Positions 19,445-56,845 of a stretch of DNA of 64,000 bases are shown one piece after another; position 1 is the first letter of the stretch, and the number at the start of each line of letters is the position of its first letter. The stretch is from Frankiales bacterium (GTDB lineage Bacteria; Actinomycetota; Actinomycetes; Mycobacteriales; Jatrophihabitantaceae). The notes under the pieces are model-generated. The model had not been told where the DNA came from. It made no database searches and saw nothing but the letters and a program-made list of their open reading frames with translations. The translations under genes were made by a program, and so were the position numbers. The stretch is taken from the NCBI GenBank assembly GCA_025966315.1, contig JAOPUZ010000023.1:62001-126000 (forward strand), written 5' to 3'.

Positions 19445-19915
19445 TCAGGATCCCGCCGCCGTGGCGACTATGTGCGCCAGTGACGGCGGCCAGACGGTCT
19501 CTTCCGTACTAAATAGCTCAGCTGGATCCCACCACCGTGCGCCCAGCACGACGCTCTGCTCCAGATCGGTGAGACAAGTGGGAGCCACCGGCGGCCGGCG
19601 TTGTTCCGTACGCGCGAGAAAGTAATGATTGGTCTGCTCCCAGAGTTCATCACCGAGCCACCAGTTCGTCGTCTCGACGAGGACTGGATCGGTCCTGGAG
19701 GTCAGGGTCACGGCGAGACCGGCTTCTTCAAGCGTCTCGCGCACGGCGGCCTGGGCAGGCGTCTCATGGGCCTCCACGCCGCCACCGGGGGTGAGCCATC
19801 GCGTCGTCCCACCGCCGGCGCGTTCGCGTTCGTGGACGAGCAGCACCGCTCCGTCGGGGTCGAGCAGGATGACCCGCCCGGCCGTCCGTCGACGCGGCGC
19901 CGACGCAGTAGTCAC
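19445..19915 (-). CDS. Nudix hydrolase, second copy
   Basis: A protein of 156 residues from GTG 19915, which overlaps the lepB stop (GTGA). The box GGGVEAHETPAQAAVRETLEEAGL fits GX5EX7REUXEEXGU fully. The opening GRVILLDPDGAVLLVHERE resembles the downstream Nudix protein, so this is probably a tandem duplication. Two nearby Trp-rich segments (TTNWWLGDELWEQTNHYF and ARWWDPAEL) are typical of this actinobacterial subgroup. The substrate is unknown. Confidence 0.9.
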   Translation of the reverse strand: MTTASAPRRRTAGRVILLDPDGAVLLVHERERAGGGTTRWLTPGGGVEAHETPAQAAVRETLEEAGLAVTLTSRTDPVLVETTNWWLGDELWEQTNHYFLARTEQRRPPVAPTCLTDLEQSVVLGARWWDPAELFSTEETVWPPSLAHIVATAAGS

Positions 19916-21231
19916 GACGGCGGAACGTGCCCGTCGGAGGCCACCGGAAGTTGCGTCGCCGACCGTCGACGACGAGCACGCCGCCGGCGCAGGCCAAACA
20001 AACCCAGCCCTGCGATCGCCGCGGCGGGCGCGGGTTCCCCCGCCGCGCCGACGCCGGGCAGACCGAGGGCGTTGAACGTCTTCGGGGTGCCCAGGGTCCG
20101 CCATCGCGAAGGTGGCCAGGCGATCACGACGGCCTTTCCGATGACGTTGTCGAGCGAGACCGTGCTCGCTTCGGGATCACAGTTCGCGCCGGTGCCGCCG
20201 TCCCCGCAGTGATACCGGGAATCGGCGGAGTCGCTGCGATGGTCGCCCATGACCCAAAGACGTCCCTCGGGCACCGTGACGGGACCGAAGCTACGACTGT
20301 CACCGGGCGCCCGGGCGCCCGGAGTCGCGGGCTTCGTCCACGGGCTGGGTTGATAGATGTAGGGCTCGTTCAAACTTCGCCAGGGACCGGACGGCCCGGA
20401 GTCGGAGATCTGCACGTTGCCCGCGTCGTCACAGCACTGCACCGTCTGGCCGCCGGTCGCGATCACGCGCTTGACCAGGTCTTTCTCACTCGGCGGTACG
20501 ACGCCGACGAGCTGGCCGAACCACTGCACGCCGTGCACCAACGGGTTGGACGACAGCACGACGCCGCCGCCTTCATCCCAATCGTCGGGCGCCTTGAACA
20601 CCACAATGTCGCCCGGTTGTGGATCGTGGATCCGATAGCCGGGCTTGAAGACGAGGATCCGGTCTCCGGAACAACCCGTGCAGCCGTGCAGGGTCTGCTC
20701 CATCGATTCCGACGGAATGTAGAACGGCTGAATCACGAAGGTCTTGAGGATGACGGCGATAGCGACGGCAATCACGATCAGGATCGGCAGCTCGAACCGG
20801 GCCGCCGCCCGACGGAAGGCACTTCGCTGCCGACGAACGACCGCCGGCTTCGACGCCGTAGCCGAGACCGTTCCGACGGAATCCGAACCGACGGGATCCG
20901 AACCGACGGGATCCGAACCGACGGGATCAGTGCCGACGGGATCAGTGCCGACGGGATCCGAACCGACAGGATCAGTGCCGACGGGATCCGAACCAACGGG
21001 ATCCGAACCGATAGGCGCGGCATGGGCCGAAGCCGTCGTCGAGGAGGTGCTCTCACTACCGTCGGCCGCGGCCCTGCCGGCCACGCCCGGCTCGGCGGGC
21101 GGCGCCGTGGGCGCGGTGTCGGGGACGGCGCGGCCCGACTTCATCGCTGATGGGTCATCGTCGGGGCGAGCCGCGTCCGAAGAATCCTCGGTACCCCAGA
21201 ATCCGGACCGTCGGGAACTGTCCTTGGCCAT
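19912..21231 (-). CDS. lepB: Signal peptidase I with pentapeptide-repeat N-terminal linker
   Basis: A 439-residue membrane peptidase that cleaves Sec/Tat signal peptides. The N-terminal 140 residues are cytoplasmic and disordered, with nine PVG(S/T)D repeats at residues 73-118. One membrane helix (LPILIVIAVAIAVILKTFVI) follows, then box B PSESMEQTL (Ser nucleophile), box C GDIVVFKAP, box D LVKRVIATGG (general-base Lys) and box E GDHRSDSADSR. The C-terminus has a short hydrophobic run followed by RRRRARRRR. It is larger than typical because of these tails. Conserved place between rplS and rnhB. Confidence 0.94.
   Translation of the reverse strand: MAKDSSRRSGFWGTEDSSDAARPDDDPSAMKSGRAVPDTAPTAPPAEPGVAGRAAADGSESTSSTTASAHAAPIGSDPVGSDPVGTDPVGSDPVGTDPVGTDPVGSDPVGSDPVGSDSVGTVSATASKPAVVRRQRSAFRRAAARFELPILIVIAVAIAVILKTFVIQPFYIPSESMEQTLHGCTGCSGDRILVFKPGYRIHDPQPGDIVVFKAPDDWDEGGGVVLSSNPLVHGVQWFGQLVGVVPPSEKDLVKRVIATGGQTVQCCDDAGNVQISDSGPSGPWRSLNEPYIYQPSPWTKPATPGARAPGDSRSFGPVTVPEGRLWVMGDHRSDSADSRYHCGDGGTGANCDPEASTVSLDNVIGKAVVIAWPPSRWRTLGTPKTFNALGLPGVGAAGEPAPAAAIAGLGLFGLRRRRARRRRSATQLPVASDGHVPPS
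20875..21015 (-). repeat. 15-bp coding tandem array in lepB
   Basis: Nine copies of a 15-base unit (GAACCGACGGGATCC / AGTGCCGACGGGATC on the plus strand) encode PVGSD or PVGTD. Copies are mixed in order, as expected from repeated duplication. The unit keeps the reading frame, so linker length in LepB can vary without loss of function. Confidence 0.9.
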
Positions 21232-34170: not shown

Positions 34171-34935
34171 TCAGACGAGTCCCCGGCCGCCGTCGAGGTA
34201 GATCACCTGGCCGGTCAGGTACCCCGATTCCTCGGCGGCCAGGAACGCGGCCACATGCGCCACATCGTCGGGCACGCCGGCACTGCGGGTCGGCGTGGCG
34301 GCGATCGTTCCCTCCCGCATCTCATCGATCGTCGAGCCGGTGCGCTCGGCCGACGATCTCGTCATGGCCGTCTCGATGAAGCCCGGTGCGATCGCGTTGG
34401 CCGTTACCCCGAACGGGCCAAGCTCGACGGCCAAGGTCTTGGTGAGCCCCTGTAGCCCCGCTTTGACGGTGGCGTAGTTGGCCTGGCCGCGCTTGCCCAG
34501 CGCCGACGTGGAACTCATGCTGATGATCCGGCCGTACCGGGCCTGAACCATGTACTGCTGCACCGCCTTGCTGCACAAGAACGCCCCGCGCAGGTGCACC
34601 CGGATCACGGTGTCCCAGTCGTCCTCCGTCATCTTGAACAAGAGGTTGTCCCGCAGCAGGCCGGCGTTGTTGACCAGAATGTGCAGGCCGCCCAATTCCC
34701 CGGCAATCCGCTCCACCGCCGTCGACACCTGCGCACTGTCACCCACGTCCGCCCCGACCGCCACCGCACGCCCGCCGGCCGCCTCGATGTCGGCCGCGAC
34801 GTCAGCCACGCCCTGGGCGTTGACGTCCAGCAACCCGACCGCCGCTCCGTCAGCAGCGAACCGGCGCGCGATCGCCGCACCGATGCCCTGGGCGGCGCCC
34901 GTGACCAACGCGATCCTGCCCTGCACTCCGCTCAT
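34171..34935 (-). CDS. SDR-family oxidoreductase (FabG-like 3-oxoacyl-ACP reductase type)
   Basis: A 254-residue protein from ATG 34935, with AGGAGGA upstream. Motifs in order: TGAAQGIGAAIARRFA (NADP binding), DVGDSAQV, NNAGLLRDNLLFKM, catalytic Ser-Tyr-Lys as ISMSSTSALGKRGQANYATVKAG, and PGFIETAMT. The close FabG match at LLRDNLLFKMTEDDWDTVI suggests a 3-oxoacyl thioester or similar ketone. It is divergent from the amidase, sharing a 237-base control region, and lies 148 bases from ffh. A fatty-acid role is not proven; many SDRs of this type serve catabolic pathways. Confidence 0.9.
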   Translation of the reverse strand: MSGVQGRIALVTGAAQGIGAAIARRFAADGAAVGLLDVNAQGVADVAADIEAAGGRAVAVGADVGDSAQVSTAVERIAGELGGLHILVNNAGLLRDNLLFKMTEDDWDTVIRVHLRGAFLCSKAVQQYMVQARYGRIISMSSTSALGKRGQANYATVKAGLQGLTKTLAVELGPFGVTANAIAPGFIETAMTRSSAERTGSTIDEMREGTIAATPTRSAGVPDDVAHVAAFLAAEESGYLTGQVIYLDGGRGLV

Positions 34936-35040
34936 CGCGGTTCCTCCTGGAGTTGATCGACTCGACCCGCTGATCCTGCTCCGAAATCCGGCGTTATGAC
35001 GCGGCGGCGCCGCAGATCCGCCCGATCCAGCGCCGGCAAG

Positions 35041-35099
35041 TGGCGTAACTTCGGCGCAATTCGGACGACCTGGCGTTGAAACCGTCACTGCGCAGGCTG
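35041..35099 (+). promoter_or_regulatory. Shared regulatory element upstream of the amidase (copy 1)
   Basis: TGGCGTAACTTC at 35041-35052 and TGCGCAGGCTG at 35089-35099 are spaced exactly as in the GntR gene upstream region (48 bases start to start), with partial matches between them (G.G..AATT). CAATTCGGAC also occurs twice nearby (35057-35066 and 35111-35120). Probably an operator and promoter bound by the neighbouring GntR/UTRA regulator. Confidence 0.65.
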
Positions 35100-35172
35100 G
35101 CGCATAGGAACAATTCGGACAAGCAATCGCGTCGGCGGCTGAGTCTCGCCGACCAAGCACGGAGGTACCTCG

Positions 35173-36621
35173 ATGACCGTTGACACCGCCCGCGACACTG
35201 CCACCGCATCGAGGGCAGCTGATCAGCTGCCGTTGACTATCACCGAAGCGGGTACGGCACTGCGGTCCGGCGCGATCACCGCGGTTGCCCTGACCCAGGC
35301 CGTTCAGGCCCGCGCCGACGTCCTGGATCCAATTCTGGGCTGCTACATCACCCGCACGAATGAATCCGCGCTGGCGGCCGCCGCCACGGCCGACGCCGAA
35401 CTGGCCGCCGGTCTCGATCGTGGCCCCCTGCACGGAATCCCGCTGGGAATCAAGGACATCATCGCCACGAACGAGGCGCCGACCACCGCCCAGAGCTTGA
35501 TCCTGGATCCACAGTTCGGCCAGCAGGGTGATGCGGTTGTCGTCCGTCGGTTACGAGCGGCCGGCGCCGTGATCACCGGCAAGGCGACCACCATGGAATA
35601 CGCGATCGGTGCGCCGGATTCGTCGAAGGGCTTTCCGACCCCGCGCAACCCTTACAACCTCGAACACTGGACTGGTGGGTCCAGCTCAGGCACCGGAAAC
35701 GGTGTCGCCGCCGGGATGTTTCTCGGCGGCCTGGGCACTGATACCGGCGGCAGTGTGCGGATGCCCGCGGCCTGGTGCGGCATCAGCGGTATGAAGCAGA
35801 CCTTCGGGCGCGTACCGAAGTCCGGCTGTGTGCCGCTCGGGATGAGCCTGGACCACATCGGCCCGATGACCCGCAGTGCCCGGGACTGCGCGGCGATGCT
35901 CGCCGTCATGGCCGGGCACGACAACAGCGACGCCTGCAGCGTGGACCGGCCGGTCGATGACTACCTGGCCGCCCTCACCGGTGACGTCACCGGCCTGCGG
36001 GTCGGCGTCGACCTGTCCTTCTTGGACCGAACGGAATGCGATCCGGACGTGGCCGCCATGATGCGAGCCGCGGTGGACGTATTCGCCGATGCCGGTGCGC
36101 TCATCGTCCCGGTCGCGCTGCCGCTGTACGAGGAACTGTCCTTTGCCAACCGGGTGACATCGAACTCGGAGTCGTCCACCTATCACCGGCCCGATCTCAA
36201 AGCTCGCTGGAGCGATTACGGCAAGCCCACCCGGATGGCCATCGGGCGCGGCATGCTGATCGCGGCGGCGGACTACGTCCAGGCGCAGCGGGTACGCCGG
36301 GTCGGCGTGCGGGCCGCCGCCGAGATGTTCGCCGACGTCGATCTGGTGCTCACGCCGACCTGTCTCAGCGCGGCGCCTAACGTCGAAGGCCTCGATTTCT
36401 TCGGGCTGTTCTCATCGCTGCTCATGTCGTACTGGAACGCGATCGGACACCCGGCCATGTCGATCCCGATGGGCTTGACCTCGGCCGGCCTGCCGGTGGG
36501 CCTGCAACTCGGCGGCCGGCCGTTCGAGGAGGCGACGATCTTCCGAGCCGCGGATGCCTTCCAGCTGCACACCGATCACCATCTGCAGGAGTCGCCGTTG
36601 GTGCTCGACTTGCTGGGTTAG
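35173..36621 (+). CDS. Amidase (amidase-signature family)
   Basis: A 482-residue hydrolase of the Ser-cisSer-Lys class. The catalytic Lys is in HGIPLGIKDIIA (about residue 94), and the two Ser are in WTGGSSSGTGNGVAAGMFLGGLGTDTGGSVRMPAAWCG (about 175 and 200). The C-terminal block VLTPTCLSAAPNVEG and GHPAMSIPMGLTSAGLPVGLQLGGRPFEEATIFR is standard. ATG 35173 follows GGAGGTACCTCG. Neighbours are a GntR/UTRA regulator and a solute-binding lipoprotein, pointing to catabolism of an imported amide or peptide-like compound. An N-terminal piece of a second such gene lies at 39181. Confidence 0.92.
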   Translation: MTVDTARDTATASRAADQLPLTITEAGTALRSGAITAVALTQAVQARADVLDPILGCYITRTNESALAAAATADAELAAGLDRGPLHGIPLGIKDIIATNEAPTTAQSLILDPQFGQQGDAVVVRRLRAAGAVITGKATTMEYAIGAPDSSKGFPTPRNPYNLEHWTGGSSSGTGNGVAAGMFLGGLGTDTGGSVRMPAAWCGISGMKQTFGRVPKSGCVPLGMSLDHIGPMTRSARDCAAMLAVMAGHDNSDACSVDRPVDDYLAALTGDVTGLRVGVDLSFLDRTECDPDVAAMMRAAVDVFADAGALIVPVALPLYEELSFANRVTSNSESSTYHRPDLKARWSDYGKPTRMAIGRGMLIAAADYVQAQRVRRVGVRAAAEMFADVDLVLTPTCLSAAPNVEGLDFFGLFSSLLMSYWNAIGHPAMSIPMGLTSAGLPVGLQLGGRPFEEATIFRAADAFQLHTDHHLQESPLVLDLLG

Positions 36622-36674
36622 CGGCGAAGCCCCCGGCCAGCCGCCGTTATTCCGTACGATTGCGCTGGGTTAAC

Positions 36675-36733
36675 TGGCGTAACTTCTGAGTAATTGAGCG
36701 GACGTGAACCGGTAATCGGTGCTGCGCAGGCTG
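36675..36733 (+). promoter_or_regulatory. Shared regulatory element upstream of gntR-type gene (copy 2)
   Basis: TGGCGTAACTTC at 36675-36686 and TGCGCAGGCTG at 36723-36733, with the same spacing as at 35041-35099. It ends 5 bases before the regulator's ATG, so binding here would give autoregulation. Confidence 0.65.
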
Positions 36734-36738
36734 TGCTA

Positions 36739-37488
36739 ATGCAGCAGCCCACATCCCGACCACTTCGCCGACGCCGACGCGTGGACGACTCGGGCCGGGT
36801 CCGTGATCTGATACGCGCAGAAATCCTGGCCAACCATTACCAACAGGAGCAGCTGCCTTCCGAGGCCGAACTGATGCTGGCTTACGGCGTCGGGCGCAAC
36901 CTCATCCGGGACGCATTGGATCTGCTCCGGTCCGAAGGGCTGATCGAGCGAATTCAAGGCTCGGGCACGTTTGTCATCAAGACCAAGATCCGTCATAACT
37001 TCGAGCGGTTTCACGCCGTGCACGACGAAATGCAGAACCCGCGCCGGGCCGGCGGCCGGATAACCGCGATGGCCACGGTGGTTGCACCCCGTCCGGTGGC
37101 GACCCAGCTCGAACTCGCCGCCGGATCGCTCTGCACGATGCTGCAATACCGGCTGACCATCGGCTCAGTGCCATTTACGATCGCGACCGCGTACGTCCCG
37201 TCGGCGATTGGCCAGCGACTGGCCGCGGTGCAATTCCAGGGGAACTTCCTCGCCTATCTGAATGCCGCCGGTCTATCCATCGGACGGGCCGACATGTCGG
37301 TCGAGGCGGTGGTCGCCGACGAGACCGTGTCCGAGGCGATGGAGATTTCGGTGGGCGAACCGGTGCTGTTGTTTCACCGTCGCCTTTATGGCGTCGACGG
37401 AACGCCGCTGGAAACCGGTTTCGTCCGGTGCCGGGGCGACGGCCTGATCCTCAACATGACCCTGCCGGTGACGCCGGACGCCGACTGA
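36739..37488 (+). CDS. GntR-family (HutC/UTRA) transcriptional regulator
   Basis: A 249-residue protein from ATG 36739. The winged helix (RVRDLIRAEILANHYQQEQLPSEAELMLAYGVGRNLIRDALDLLRSEGLIERIQGSGTFV) is a clear GntR domain. The remainder has the UTRA ligand-binding plan (LCTMLQYRLTIGSVPFTIATAYVPSAIG ... VLLFHRRLYGVDGTPLETGFVRCRGDGL). It probably senses a substrate of the adjacent amidase or transporter lipoprotein. A TTG or ATG further upstream would run back through the control element and is less likely. Confidence 0.9.
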   Translation: MQQPTSRPLRRRRRVDDSGRVRDLIRAEILANHYQQEQLPSEAELMLAYGVGRNLIRDALDLLRSEGLIERIQGSGTFVIKTKIRHNFERFHAVHDEMQNPRRAGGRITAMATVVAPRPVATQLELAAGSLCTMLQYRLTIGSVPFTIATAYVPSAIGQRLAAVQFQGNFLAYLNAAGLSIGRADMSVEAVVADETVSEAMEISVGEPVLLFHRRLYGVDGTPLETGFVRCRGDGLILNMTLPVTPDAD

Positions 37489-37561
37489 ACCGTCCGTAGC
37501 TCGAGCTGTATCCGCGCGACTTCTCACGCGTTTGTTTCCGCGCCCTCGAAAGGATCACGCA

Positions 37562-39184
37562 ATGCCCGCACGCGTCACCCGTCACGGCAAGACCTGGAAA
37601 TTAGCGGCGATCGGCGGCGTGTTCGCGCTGACCCTCACCGCCGCCTGCAGTCCCGGCAAGAAGACGACCGGCGGCGGCTCCTCCTCCAGCGGTCAGGCCG
37701 GCACCCTGGTCATCGGCATGACCGCGTCCGACATCCCGCTGCTGGACACCGGGCTCACCCAGAACCAGGGTTATGAGGGCGTGCGTTTCGTGGGCAATCA
37801 GCTGTACGACGGGCTGACCCGGTTCGATCTGAACCAGGGCACCGAGATCCCGAAGGTCGTCCCGAGCCTGGCGCTGTCCTGGACGCCGGATGCCACCGGC
37901 AGCAACTGGACGTTCAAGCTCCGTCCCAACGTGAAGTTCTCAGACGGCACCCCGTGGAACGCAGACGCGGCGATCTTCAACCTCGACCGCTACGTCGACA
38001 AATCCAGCCCGCAGTTCTACCCGGCGCTCAACGCGCAGGCCGGCCTGGCGTTGTCCGGCATCAAGTCGGCCAGCAAGGTCGATGACATGACGATCAAGAT
38101 CAGCACCGACGGACCGTTGTCCTACATCGCAACGAACCTGACCACGATCTCGATGGGCAGCCCGACCGCGATCAAGGCCGAGGGCAACGAGGGATTCGGC
38201 GCCAAACCGGTCGGCACCGGACCGTTCATCTTCGAGAGTGAAACCCGCGGCCAGCAATTGGTGATGACCGCCAACAAGAACTACTGGGGTGGCGCGCCGA
38301 AGATCAACAAACTGATCCTGCGGCCGATCCCGGACACCACCGCACGGGTCGCGGCCCTGCAGACCGGGCAGGTCAACTGGATCGAGGTCCCGCCGCCGGA
38401 CGACATCGCGAACCTGGAGAAGAGCGGCTTCCAGGTCGTGACCAACAGCTACGACCACATCTGGCCCTGGGCGTTCAACGTGTCGCAGAAGCCGTGGAAC
38501 GACGTGCGCGTCCGGCAAGCCGCCAACTACGCGATTGATCGCGAGTCGTTGATCAAGAATGTGCTGCAAGGTACGGCCGATCCGGCATACCAGGTCGCGC
38601 CAAAAGCGAACTCCGCCTATCGGGCGTCGAACGACCTGTACAGCTATGACCCGGCGAAGGCCAAGCAGCTGCTCGCTGCGGCGGGCTATCCCAACGGCTT
38701 CACAACGACGTTGTCCTACCCGACCAGCGGGAGTGGCAACATGATCCCGACGCCGATGAACGAGGCGCTGCAACAGGATCTGGCCAAGGTGGGTATCAAG
38801 GTCACCCTGCAACCGATCGAGTGGGCATCGATGATCACCAGCCTGATCGCCGGCAAGATTCCGGGCAACGCGCAAGCCATCAACGTGAGTGAGACATTCC
38901 AGCAGGACGGTTTCTGGACCGCGTTCTTCTCCCCCACCAGCTCCATCAACGTCGGTAAGTACAACGACCCGAAGGTCAACGCGCTGTTCGCCCAGATCAG
39001 GGCTGAGCTCGACCCGGCCAAGCGCAGCGACCTGTACGCCCAGGTGAGCAAGCTGATCACCGAGGACGCACCGTGGCTGTTCGTGGTCAACGATCGCGAT
39101 CCCCGCGCGCTGGCCAAGAACGTCACCGGCTTCATCCAGCCGAAGTCGTGGTTCGTCGACCTGACCCACCTGTCGGTTTCATGA
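37562..39184 (+). CDS. ABC transporter solute-binding lipoprotein, family 5 (peptide/nickel/oligopeptide type)
   Basis: A 540-residue protein. The lipoprotein signal GGVFALTLTAACSPG has Cys at about residue 27 and is followed by a Gly/Ser spacer. The body is DppA/OppA-like: LSWTPDATGSNWTFKLRPNVKFSDGTPWNADAAIFNLDR, YSYDPAKAKQLLAAAGYPNG and the C-terminal DLYAQVSKLITEDAPWLFVVNDRDP. ATG 37562 has AAAGGA upstream. No permease or ATPase gene is in this window, so the receptor is an orphan here; it may share a transporter encoded elsewhere. Its stop overlaps the start of an amidase stub (ATGA). Confidence 0.92.
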   Translation: MPARVTRHGKTWKLAAIGGVFALTLTAACSPGKKTTGGGSSSSGQAGTLVIGMTASDIPLLDTGLTQNQGYEGVRFVGNQLYDGLTRFDLNQGTEIPKVVPSLALSWTPDATGSNWTFKLRPNVKFSDGTPWNADAAIFNLDRYVDKSSPQFYPALNAQAGLALSGIKSASKVDDMTIKISTDGPLSYIATNLTTISMGSPTAIKAEGNEGFGAKPVGTGPFIFESETRGQQLVMTANKNYWGGAPKINKLILRPIPDTTARVAALQTGQVNWIEVPPPDDIANLEKSGFQVVTNSYDHIWPWAFNVSQKPWNDVRVRQAANYAIDRESLIKNVLQGTADPAYQVAPKANSAYRASNDLYSYDPAKAKQLLAAAGYPNGFTTTLSYPTSGSGNMIPTPMNEALQQDLAKVGIKVTLQPIEWASMITSLIAGKIPGNAQAINVSETFQQDGFWTAFFSPTSSINVGKYNDPKVNALFAQIRAELDPAKRSDLYAQVSKLITEDAPWLFVVNDRDPRALAKNVTGFIQPKSWFVDLTHLSVS

Positions 39185-39294
39185 CCGTCGTAGCACGACG
39201 ACCCAATCAGCGGACGGCGAGGGCGGCGGCCGCGGATGAGGTGGCGCTAACCATCACCGACGCGGGAATCGCGTTGCGCTTGCTGGCGGCATGA
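39181..39294 (+). pseudogene. N-terminal stub of a second amidase
   Basis: Thirty-seven codons starting with an ATGA overlap to the lipoprotein stop: MTVVARRPNQRTARAAAADE then VALTITDAGIALRLLAA, stop. The end matches the intact amidase N-terminus (DQLPLTITEAGTALRSGAI) in LTIT(E/D)AG(T/I)ALR, and the first codons ATGACCGT are the same. All catalytic parts are missing. It is therefore the remnant of a paralogous amidase once in operon with the lipoprotein. Confidence 0.75.
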
Positions 39295-39461
39295 CCGAAC
39301 GCGACCAACCGCGTGCCGCCGACCGCGGCGACCGGATCCCGGCGCCGGTTCGCATCCAGCTCGCCGGCGTGACGGTGTCGGCCGACCGAGTGCAGATACT
39401 GCCGGTGGTTGCCGACCAGGACGCGGCAGCGCCGGACTCCGGCTTGTCACCGCTGCTGTAA
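39291..39461 (+). CDS. Small protein of 56 residues, possibly AtzG/DUF4089-like
   Basis: ATG 39291 overlaps the stub's TGA (ATGA) and the frame ends at TAA 39461. The sequence includes IQLAGVTVSADRVQILPVV, which recalls the LAGLxLxxERxxxLxPxxA pattern of AtzG/DUF4089 proteins that partner amidases. The match is weak. If real, it and the stub are the two ends of a lost amidase/AtzG pair. The C-terminal half is Ala/Asp rich with no features. Confidence 0.4.
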   Translation: MTERDQPRAADRGDRIPAPVRIQLAGVTVSADRVQILPVVADQDAAAPDSGLSPLL

Positions 39462-39510
39462 TCGCCCGCCGGCACTCGGTGTAGCCGCCAATCGGCACAA
39501 GGCGGCTCGC

Positions 39511-39562
39511 CGGCTGGGTCGACTGGGTCGGCTGGGTCGGCTGGGTCGGCTGGGTCGGCTGG
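39511..39562. repeat. 9-bp tandem array GGCTGGGTC
   Basis: About five and a half copies of a 9-base unit (GGCTGGGTC, first with A for G) lie just upstream of the Pr6Pr-type membrane gene. The same unit occurs in coding DNA at 56944-57013. Noncoding here. Confidence 0.9.
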
Positions 39563-40199
39563 CATGCTGACCGGATGGCCAGCACACTCACTCCGTCCCA
39601 CGCGCCCGTACGGTTGCTCCGGCTGGCGCTGGCGGTGCTCGGCGCGCTCGCCATCTACTTCGACGGCCGGGACCAGGTCAGTTCCCTCGGCAGCTTCGTC
39701 GACTTCATCAGCTACTTCACGATCGAGAGCAACGTGCTGGCGGTGGTGGTGTTCACGATCGGCAGCATCGGCCGTGATCGCCGCGCCTGGTGGGACCGGC
39801 TCCGCGGCCTGAGCACGTTCTGCATGATCGTGACCGGTGTGGTCTACGCGGTGCTGCTGGCGACCTCCGGTCCGATCAGCTGGACGAACGTGGTGCTGCA
39901 CCGGGTGTTGCCGGTCGCGGTCACCCTGGACTGGCTGGCGCTGCCAACCGGGCAGCGGCTGGGCTATCGGCGTTCGCTGCTCTGGCTGCTGGCGCCGTTG
40001 CTGTTCAGTGCGTACTCGCTGATCCGGGGTCCGTTCGCCCACTGGTACCCGTATTCGTTTCTCAATCCGGGCCGTGGCTACGCCCGGGTCGCCACCTACT
40101 GTGTCGTGCTCGCGGCCGCGATGGCCTTACTGGCGCTGGTGATCGTGCTGGTCGGCAACGCCCGCCGACGGCTGGGCGGACCGGTTGGTGCGGCGGCGC

Positions 40200-44209
<4,010 letters not shown>

Positions 44210-56049: not shown

Positions 56050-56640
56050 TCACGGTTGAGTGTCGCTGCGGGTTTCACTTCGGGTGTCGCGGTGGGACTC
56101 ACTGCTGGCCTCACCGAACCGCTCGGCGAGAGCGGCCCAGCGAGGATCGAGCTGGGTGTGCGTGTGATCGGCCGGCAGGTCGTCGAGCCGTTCTCCACAA
56201 TCGGAGCACAAACCGGCGCAATCGGCTTGGCACAGCGGCGTCAGCGGCAAGCTGAGGACCACCACGTCACGCACGACCGGCTCGAGATCGAGATGATCGC
56301 CCTCGAGTCGGCTGACCTCATCCTCGTCGGTGGTTTTCTCGGTCAGGCTGTTCGGGTAAGCGAACAACTCGACGAAGTCGACCTCCAGCGCGTCGGTGAA
56401 ACCGATGAGACACCGCCCGCACTCACCGCGCAGCTCTGCCGTGACCGAACCGGTCGCCAGGACCCCTTCGGTAACCGACTCGATGCGAACGGTCAATGCC
56501 ATGGGCGAGCCCTCGGGCACCCCGATCATGTCCAGGCCTAGCTGCGCAGGTGCTGCCATCGGCCGCTCGTAGGTCCGGCTCAAACCCGGGCGTCGCCCCA
56601 ACTCCCTGGTGTCCAGGACGAACGGGCTACGCGGGTTCAC
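56050..56640 (-). CDS. DUF177 (YceD-like) protein
   Basis: A protein of 196 residues from GTG 56640, with GAAGG five bases upstream; an ORF extension of 29 codons looks unconserved. It begins NPRSPFVLDTRELGRRPGLSRTY. Two Cys pairs form the domain core: GECGRCLIGF and LCQADCAGLCSDCGERL. The family is linked to 23S rRNA accumulation and always sits before rpmF. The C-terminus is Ser/Arg/Asp rich (SHRDTRSETRSDT). Confidence 0.9.
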   Translation of the reverse strand: MNPRSPFVLDTRELGRRPGLSRTYERPMAAPAQLGLDMIGVPEGSPMALTVRIESVTEGVLATGSVTAELRGECGRCLIGFTDALEVDFVELFAYPNSLTEKTTDEDEVSRLEGDHLDLEPVVRDVVVLSLPLTPLCQADCAGLCSDCGERLDDLPADHTHTQLDPRWAALAERFGEASSESHRDTRSETRSDTQP

Positions 56641-56845
56641 GGTGACCTTCGGGTCGTACGGTTGGGAATCGATCTCAGCAACAACTACGCGGAAATTCGG
56701 TCTGACTGTGCAGCACAGCTCGGACATGGATCTGGCCGTCGTTCAACATACCTGAGCGGCGGGCCCACCCGGAAATCAGCGATCAGCGCCGCGGCACCCG
56801 GCCGCACCCTGTCGGGTCGGCCGACGCACGAGCGCAGCACCGGAG

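Follow-up and report, generated by a model that had tools for sequence, protein, structure and literature searches.

The stretch analysed here (the ‘window’: 64,000 nucleotides of a Frankiales bacterium, NCBI GenBank assembly GCA_025966315.1, contig JAOPUZ010000023.1, positions 62,001 to 126,000; our contig C29, in a genome of 4.56 Mb and 77 contigs) carries a small amidase cassette. We consider this cassette likely to be a satellite copy of a nitrogen-controlled system for amide import and hydrolysis in Actinomycetota, in which a second amidase–adaptor pair has collapsed. The complete system exists elsewhere, and consists of a GntR regulator, a DppBCDF importer, a lipoprotein receptor and amidases adjoining small proteins predicted to form two helices.

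Within the cassette, all of which lies on the + strand, an amidase-signature enzyme of 482 amino acids (aa; 35173–36621; PF01425, 3.6e-95, 320 bits against a cut-off of 27) is followed after 117 bp by a GntR/UTRA regulator of 249 aa (36739–37488; PF00392 and PF07702) and, after a further 73 bp, by a family-5 solute-binding lipoprotein of 540 aa (37562–39184; SBP_bac_5, PF00496, 6.5e-89), in which a lipobox-like LTAAC can be read. The amidase retains its Lys-Ser-Ser catalytic motifs; in a motif alignment K94, S170 and S194, which we take to be the catalytic residues of the amidase signature family (Lys-cisSer-Ser), are present here as well as in ten amidases of the complete cluster described below. 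Beyond the lipoprotein lie a 37-codon stub (39181–39294), which we read as the beginning of another, window-type amidase, and a 56-codon open reading frame (ORF), ORF56 (39291–39461). The original prediction had listed these genes together with a short-chain dehydrogenase/reductase (SDR) on the opposite strand, and all are found, the main ones with Pfam support; it had, however, joined every one of them by ATGA overlaps, which are confined to the last two junctions (lipoprotein–stub and stub–ORF56). It had also described the permeases and the rest of the second amidase as missing. For the interval itself this holds: the ORFs examined in 34171–39461 include neither a permease nor an ATPase, nor another complete amidase, no permease adjoins the receptor, and the Dpp/Opp-type importer (receptor, two permeases, two ATPases) is incomplete in the window. 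It does not hold for the genome as a whole, as contig C6 carries a complete cluster; the permeases are therefore missing only locally.

The C6 cluster runs from GntR (162198) through DppB (162983–163927), DppC (164013–164897), DppD, DppF, two solute-binding proteins and a small ORF (170762–170980) into a run of amidases on one strand (G000:C6:170980-191775). Thirteen of these genes are complete, whilst the fourteenth belongs to a different type and is truncated where the contig stops. Two paralogues of the window receptor, 70 and 67% identical to it, are found on this contig, which also has the genome's sole DppC of this type; the other three DppC matches are 29–33% identical. Two more small ORFs, members of one family, lie inside the run (176873–177058 and 189010–189201). 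In addition, a 65-codon ORF without a Pfam match (C6:190761-190958; L031 761-958) precedes the nitrile-type amidase. The 104 bases that close C6 recur at the end of contig C26 (99%) and, less exactly, within it (90%); as C26 bears three amidases of the other type, one again cut by the contig end, the run may continue there to a total of about sixteen, with the join drawn across a repeated stretch. The genome as a whole contains 27 amidase matches, against 2 to 11 in the 23 other genomes of the family; a preliminary count of candidates gave 31 here and no more than 28 in any of 149 other genomes. A third related locus, at C37:53663–57747, comprises a GntR gene, a GlnR-type box, an AtzG2-like ORF (56530–56706; see below) of the same family as the two small ORFs inside the C6 run and two amidases that are 55–56% identical to that of the window.

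Ten of the C6 amidases form a single genome-specific clade (support 100/98); they are 65–78% identical to one another, with a median ratio of nonsynonymous to synonymous substitution rates (dN/dS) of 0.31 over 45 pairs. These ten make up an old and maintained expansion. As the window amidase falls outside this clade, we think it unlikely that the window locus split off from the C6 run recently; in trees of the receptor and of GntR the window copies take no settled position. On our best reading the window satellite is older, and probably relies on the importer encoded on C6.

Intact versions of the system were collected with a pair of short peptide patterns, derived from an alignment of the receptor and scanned against 84,980 species, a procedure that misses distant receptors. 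The nineteen loci retrieved are all labelled as Actinomycetota; within the order, the receptor is found at E ≤ 1e-140 in 6 of 397 genomes, our own included. (The labels AMIw, AMI0, AtzG1 and AtzG2 were coined in this analysis, and AMI12 denotes the sister type of the window amidase.) DppC, DppD and DppF occur in every locus and DppB in 18, the remaining locus (L078) being cut by the contig start. GntR is present in 12 of the 19, an amidase of the window or AMI12 type in 14, a nitrile-type amidase in nine and an AMI0-type amidase in eight, each of these eight directly preceded by an AtzG1-type small protein; an AtzG2-type small protein occurs in 14. Three loci (L082, L084, L085) are without an amidase and two (L077, L086) end shortly after the receptor. 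The expectation that relatives would hold intact versions was thus borne out in content, in that the same receptor is accompanied by permeases, by amidases of two types and by small proteins resembling AtzG/GatC, but at other sites. We also looked to the neighbouring genes for a guess at the substrate, and found nothing consistent beyond the third, nitrile-type amidase (named by eye). The loci point to an uncharacterised means by which actinobacteria, here and there in several families, obtain organic nitrogen; in the open-licence literature we found no description of this receptor–amidase system.

The case for nitrogen control comes from boxes that match a pattern combining published GlnR consensus sequences (PMC10704036), with C or T allowed as the last base, as in the window sites. 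One such box (GTAAC-n6-GCAAT-n6-GACCT-n6-GAAAC; 35045–35082, + strand) lies 128 bp 5′ of the amidase ATG, and a second (GTAAC-n6-GTAAT-n6-GACGT-n6-GTAAT; 36679–36716, + strand) lies 60 bp 5′ of the GntR ATG; an alternative TTG start for GntR at 36694 is possible, and it is the ATG that gives the same box spacing as in relatives. GlnR-type boxes are found at both window promoters, on C6 (at 162138, 60 bp before its GntR) and on C37. When segments of 220 bp before first genes were compared, 12 of 18 contained the pattern (expected about 0.009 each; two in the window and 10 of 16 in relatives). The merged pattern was used for this count since in another scoring random sequence sometimes equalled the weaker sites; which gene was taken as first, and where it starts, was decided once the motif was known, and L074, L078 and L086 were excluded for want of upstream DNA. 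In 10 of the 12, the box lies 60–65 bp from the start, the others being the window amidase and L080 (94 bp). A 20-base motif built from three sites (window amidase, window GntR, C6 GntR) occurs nowhere else in the genome in exact form, and with up to three mismatches gives seven matches against four for a reversed control pattern. A looser pair of half-sites occurs twice in the window, on both occasions at the cassette promoters, a number reached in 3 of 100 shuffles. The same box layout is seen about 210 bp before glnA, whose 4.1-kb locus has another two matches away from the promoter; at the amtB promoter (44306, − strand) the GlnR-type box is weaker.

An 11-bp direct repeat suits a regulator of the OmpR type. 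The boxes could nonetheless be operators of the cluster's own GntR protein, or MtrA sites, with no part played by nitrogen; of the alternatives this survives best, although we regard it as unlikely. In its favour, the box stands directly before a GntR gene in eight of the ten box-bearing segments of relatives, several sites are nearly palindromic (TTAAC-n6-GTTAC), and the reference list of a review on GlnR names a paper on MtrA binding to GlnR boxes. Conversely, the half-sites agree with GlnR consensus sequences published for several species; the gene that follows the box is dppB in L080 and L081 and an AtzG-like gene on C37; and several loci, as well as the region upstream of glnA, have additional half-sites in 11-bp phase.

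Distinctly less probable is that the entire window locus is dying, its amidase, regulator and receptor no longer in use. The absence of the transporter and of a second amidase, the apparent collapse of one amidase–adaptor pair and the existence of a complete system elsewhere would all suit such an account; against it stand the open frames, the catalytic motifs, dN/dS values of 0.27–0.42 for the window amidase and receptor against their homologues, and the boxes kept at both promoters.

That a second window amidase has been reduced to the 37-codon stub is well supported. In an alignment against 33 amidases, each cut to its N-terminal 60 aa, the stub finds its best match (score 64) in the window's own amidase, start to start over 33 aa, a score equalled by none of 2000 shuffles; its second-best match (63) is the C6 amidase at 175431, itself ATGA-coupled to an AtzG2-type gene. 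The original prediction of homology to the amidase N-terminus is upheld by this result, and less strongly by two full-length tests, in which 1 of 300 shuffles scored as high (pairwise alignment) and 15 of 2000 were as good (amidase hidden Markov model, HMM). ORF56, for its part, is possibly what is left of an AtzG/GatC-like adaptor, a suggestion drawn chiefly from its position and coupling, the evidence of its own sequence being weak and mixed. The order receptor–amidase–AtzG2 in L081 parallels receptor–stub–ORF56 in the window, and the ATGA overlap between stub and ORF56 resembles that between window-type amidase and small protein in L073, L089 and C6 (GTGA in L072); in other loci the two genes are separate or in reversed order. 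As for the faint AtzG likeness claimed for ORF56 by the original prediction, coupling and an HMM comparison (1 of 2000 shuffles) speak for it and a C-anchored alignment (40 of 2000) agrees less well, with two further searches, given below, pointing the other way.

The stub and ORF56 could instead be small functional genes, acting as translation couplers or as a short adaptor, and not remnants at all. Both overlaps are exact ATGA, neither frame has an internal stop, and the G+C content at third codon positions is 0.74 and 0.83, respectively. Yet the stub is amidase N-terminal sequence without the catalytic part, neither ORF matches Pfam or NCBIfam, and tblastn of ORF56 against the nineteen loci gives nothing better than E 0.33; we think this alternative improbable, a shade more so than a dying locus. 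That the stub resembles an amidase by mere chance, as the full-length shuffle results might allow, is very improbable indeed given the clean N-terminal test, the identity of its two top matches (the second with its coupled AtzG2-type neighbour) and the fact that three of its six weak tblastn matches in the nineteen loci fall at amidase starts (L074, L080, L088).

What the intact adaptors might be is suggested by structure prediction. No known family could be assigned to the small ORFs: AtzG1 and AtzG2 have no Pfam match and no convincing match among PDB sequences, and NCBIfam adds none. At E ≤ 0.01 an AtzG2 profile finds three places in this genome and none in eight other genomes of the order. 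The AlphaFold model of AtzG2 (pLDDT, the predicted local confidence, 85.6) consists of two helices and a tail. Compared by Foldseek with 350,542 chains, its best match is 6c62_C, from an entry titled as a vestigial complex of an s-triazine enzyme; we take this chain, whose length agrees, to be AtzG. Ranks 2–5, 7, 8, 10 and 13 are chains of GatCAB or GatA–GatC entries, those at ranks 2–5 being taken, by chain length, to be GatC. On this model the intact AtzG2-type proteins may resemble AtzG/GatC, albeit at weak E-values; the AtzG1 model is of lower confidence (pLDDT 72.7).

Under the satellite reading, nitrogen limitation would lead GlnR to switch on both the window and the C6 loci, with the GntR protein adjusting expression to its ligand. 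The orphan lipoprotein might then pass its cargo, a small amide or a compound resembling a peptide, to the importer encoded on C6, proposed as its partner because this is the only importer of its type in the genome, and ammonia would be set free by the amidase. Among receptors of known structure, those closest in sequence are named heme-binding protein A, YliB and dipeptide-binding protein, from which a small peptide-like amide is our guess at the cargo. The stub and ORF56 would have been left by an internal deletion of the second amidase–adaptor pair. The earlier description, of a partly degraded catabolic system for an imported amide or peptide, holds as to homology and partial decay; it erred over the SDR and the overlaps and missed the complete C6 cluster.

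Several observations weigh against this reading. The box is absent from 6 of the 18 upstream segments (L079, L082, L083, L084, L085, L089). The window GntR is just 51% identical to that of C6 and may therefore sense a different ligand, and the sharing of the C6 importer by the window lipoprotein is a matter of inference only. Three frames of 39181–39620 contain no amidase remnant beyond the stub. For ORF56, ordinary local alignment failed its test (664 of 2000 shuffles), and the AtzG2 profile search of the genome did not report this ORF at its threshold. Finally, the E-values of the AtzG2 Foldseek matches are all 0.68 or worse, and the AtzG1 model returned no Foldseek matches.

More tentatively, and in our view less likely than not, the system may be modular: one importer serving several dispersed receptor–amidase satellites under common GlnR control, with about sixteen diverged amidases and exchangeable GatC-like adaptors widening the range of amides used. 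If the proposed route to organic nitrogen is real, the two small-protein families, which stand beside amidases and have no Pfam model, and the unusually large set of diverged tandem amidases would offer material for asking how such amidases divide their substrates and whether they need GatC-like partners.

The arrangement has several known counterparts. In Pseudomonas sp. ADP, AtzG is described as a small non-catalytic, GatC-derived partner of AtzE, the 1-carboxybiuret amidohydrolase, and AtzG–AtzE–AtzH clusters with ATP-binding cassette (ABC) transporters are described in Proteobacteria (PMC6219798). Common to both is an amidase-signature enzyme beside a small partner; the clusters studied here differ in that we recognised no AtzH, AtzD or AtzF in them by eye, the small proteins have no Pfam family, and the window amidase falls below the cut-offs of the AtzE models (NF006631/TIGR02715; 276 of 461 and 258 of 426 bits). 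GatCAB is likened through GatA, the best PDB relative of the amidase, and through the Foldseek chains at ranks 2–5 for the small protein, and differs in that the cassette has no GatB; a separate GatA-like gene lies at C29:159460, next to an ORF read by eye as GatB. A similar set, likened by annotation only, is MSMEG_1082-1090 of Mycobacterium smegmatis: a peptide/nickel-type transporter (1084), DppB (1085), a permease (1086), an ATPase (1087), a GatA-like protein (1088), a hypothetical protein (1089) and an amidase (1090), as annotated (PMC4222082, PMC3662644 and PMC4617892). There DppB 1085 is given as induced 7.7-fold under nitrogen limitation (PMC4617892), MSMEG_1082 and 1084–1090 appear with ratios of 4.6–51.8 in the section on wild type and glnR mutant (PMC4222082), and a GlnR site is listed at MSMEG1082 (PMC3662644), whereas PMC4222082 reports no GlnR binding upstream of MSMEG_1084 or 1090. 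MSMEG_1082 is moreover annotated as a LuxR-type response regulator, and not as GntR. Among four large genomes of one genus, presumably mycobacterial, that we compared, no amidase exceeds 39% identity.

At the left edge of the cassette, the SDR (FabG-like; 34171–34935, − strand) had been counted as one of its members, an assignment that we reject on the strength of synteny beside ffh. A search for ffh at E ≤ 1e-150 succeeded in 20 of 24 genomes of the family, our own included, and the stretch beside ffh (2 to 11 kb) was compared for twelve. An SDR 64–72% identical to that of the window adjoins ffh in eleven of these; in the twelfth (L070, 2 kb) no SDR is seen and glnD lies near ffh. Searches at E ≤ 1e-8 detected neither amidase nor GntR nor receptor in any of the twelve, so that the site itself offers no intact version of the cassette. 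The gene glnD falls within 6 of the 12 stretches. ORFs were listed for six stretches; read by eye, the genes that separate the SDR from glnD in L059 and L060 are a further SDR or flavin oxidoreductase, together with an acyl-CoA dehydrogenase and a phosphotransferase, and parts of the same gene set are legible in L062, L067 and L068; from these intervals it follows that the cassette occupies the place of the relatives' acyl-CoA gene set, of which the window SDR looks like an apparent remnant, a resident neighbour outside the cassette. Relocation of the resident genes was considered and rejected, the best acyl-CoA dehydrogenase elsewhere in the genome being just 41% identical to that of L060.

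Close to the right edge of the cassette, directly 3′ of ORF56, a short tandem repeat of CTGGGTCGG-like units (39515–39565) was seen by eye, and two nitrogen genes, glnD and amtB, lie near the cassette at 40200–44209. Further away, an ORF at 19912–21231 (− strand) was read by eye as many DPVGS/DPVGT repeats followed by a signal-peptidase-like part.

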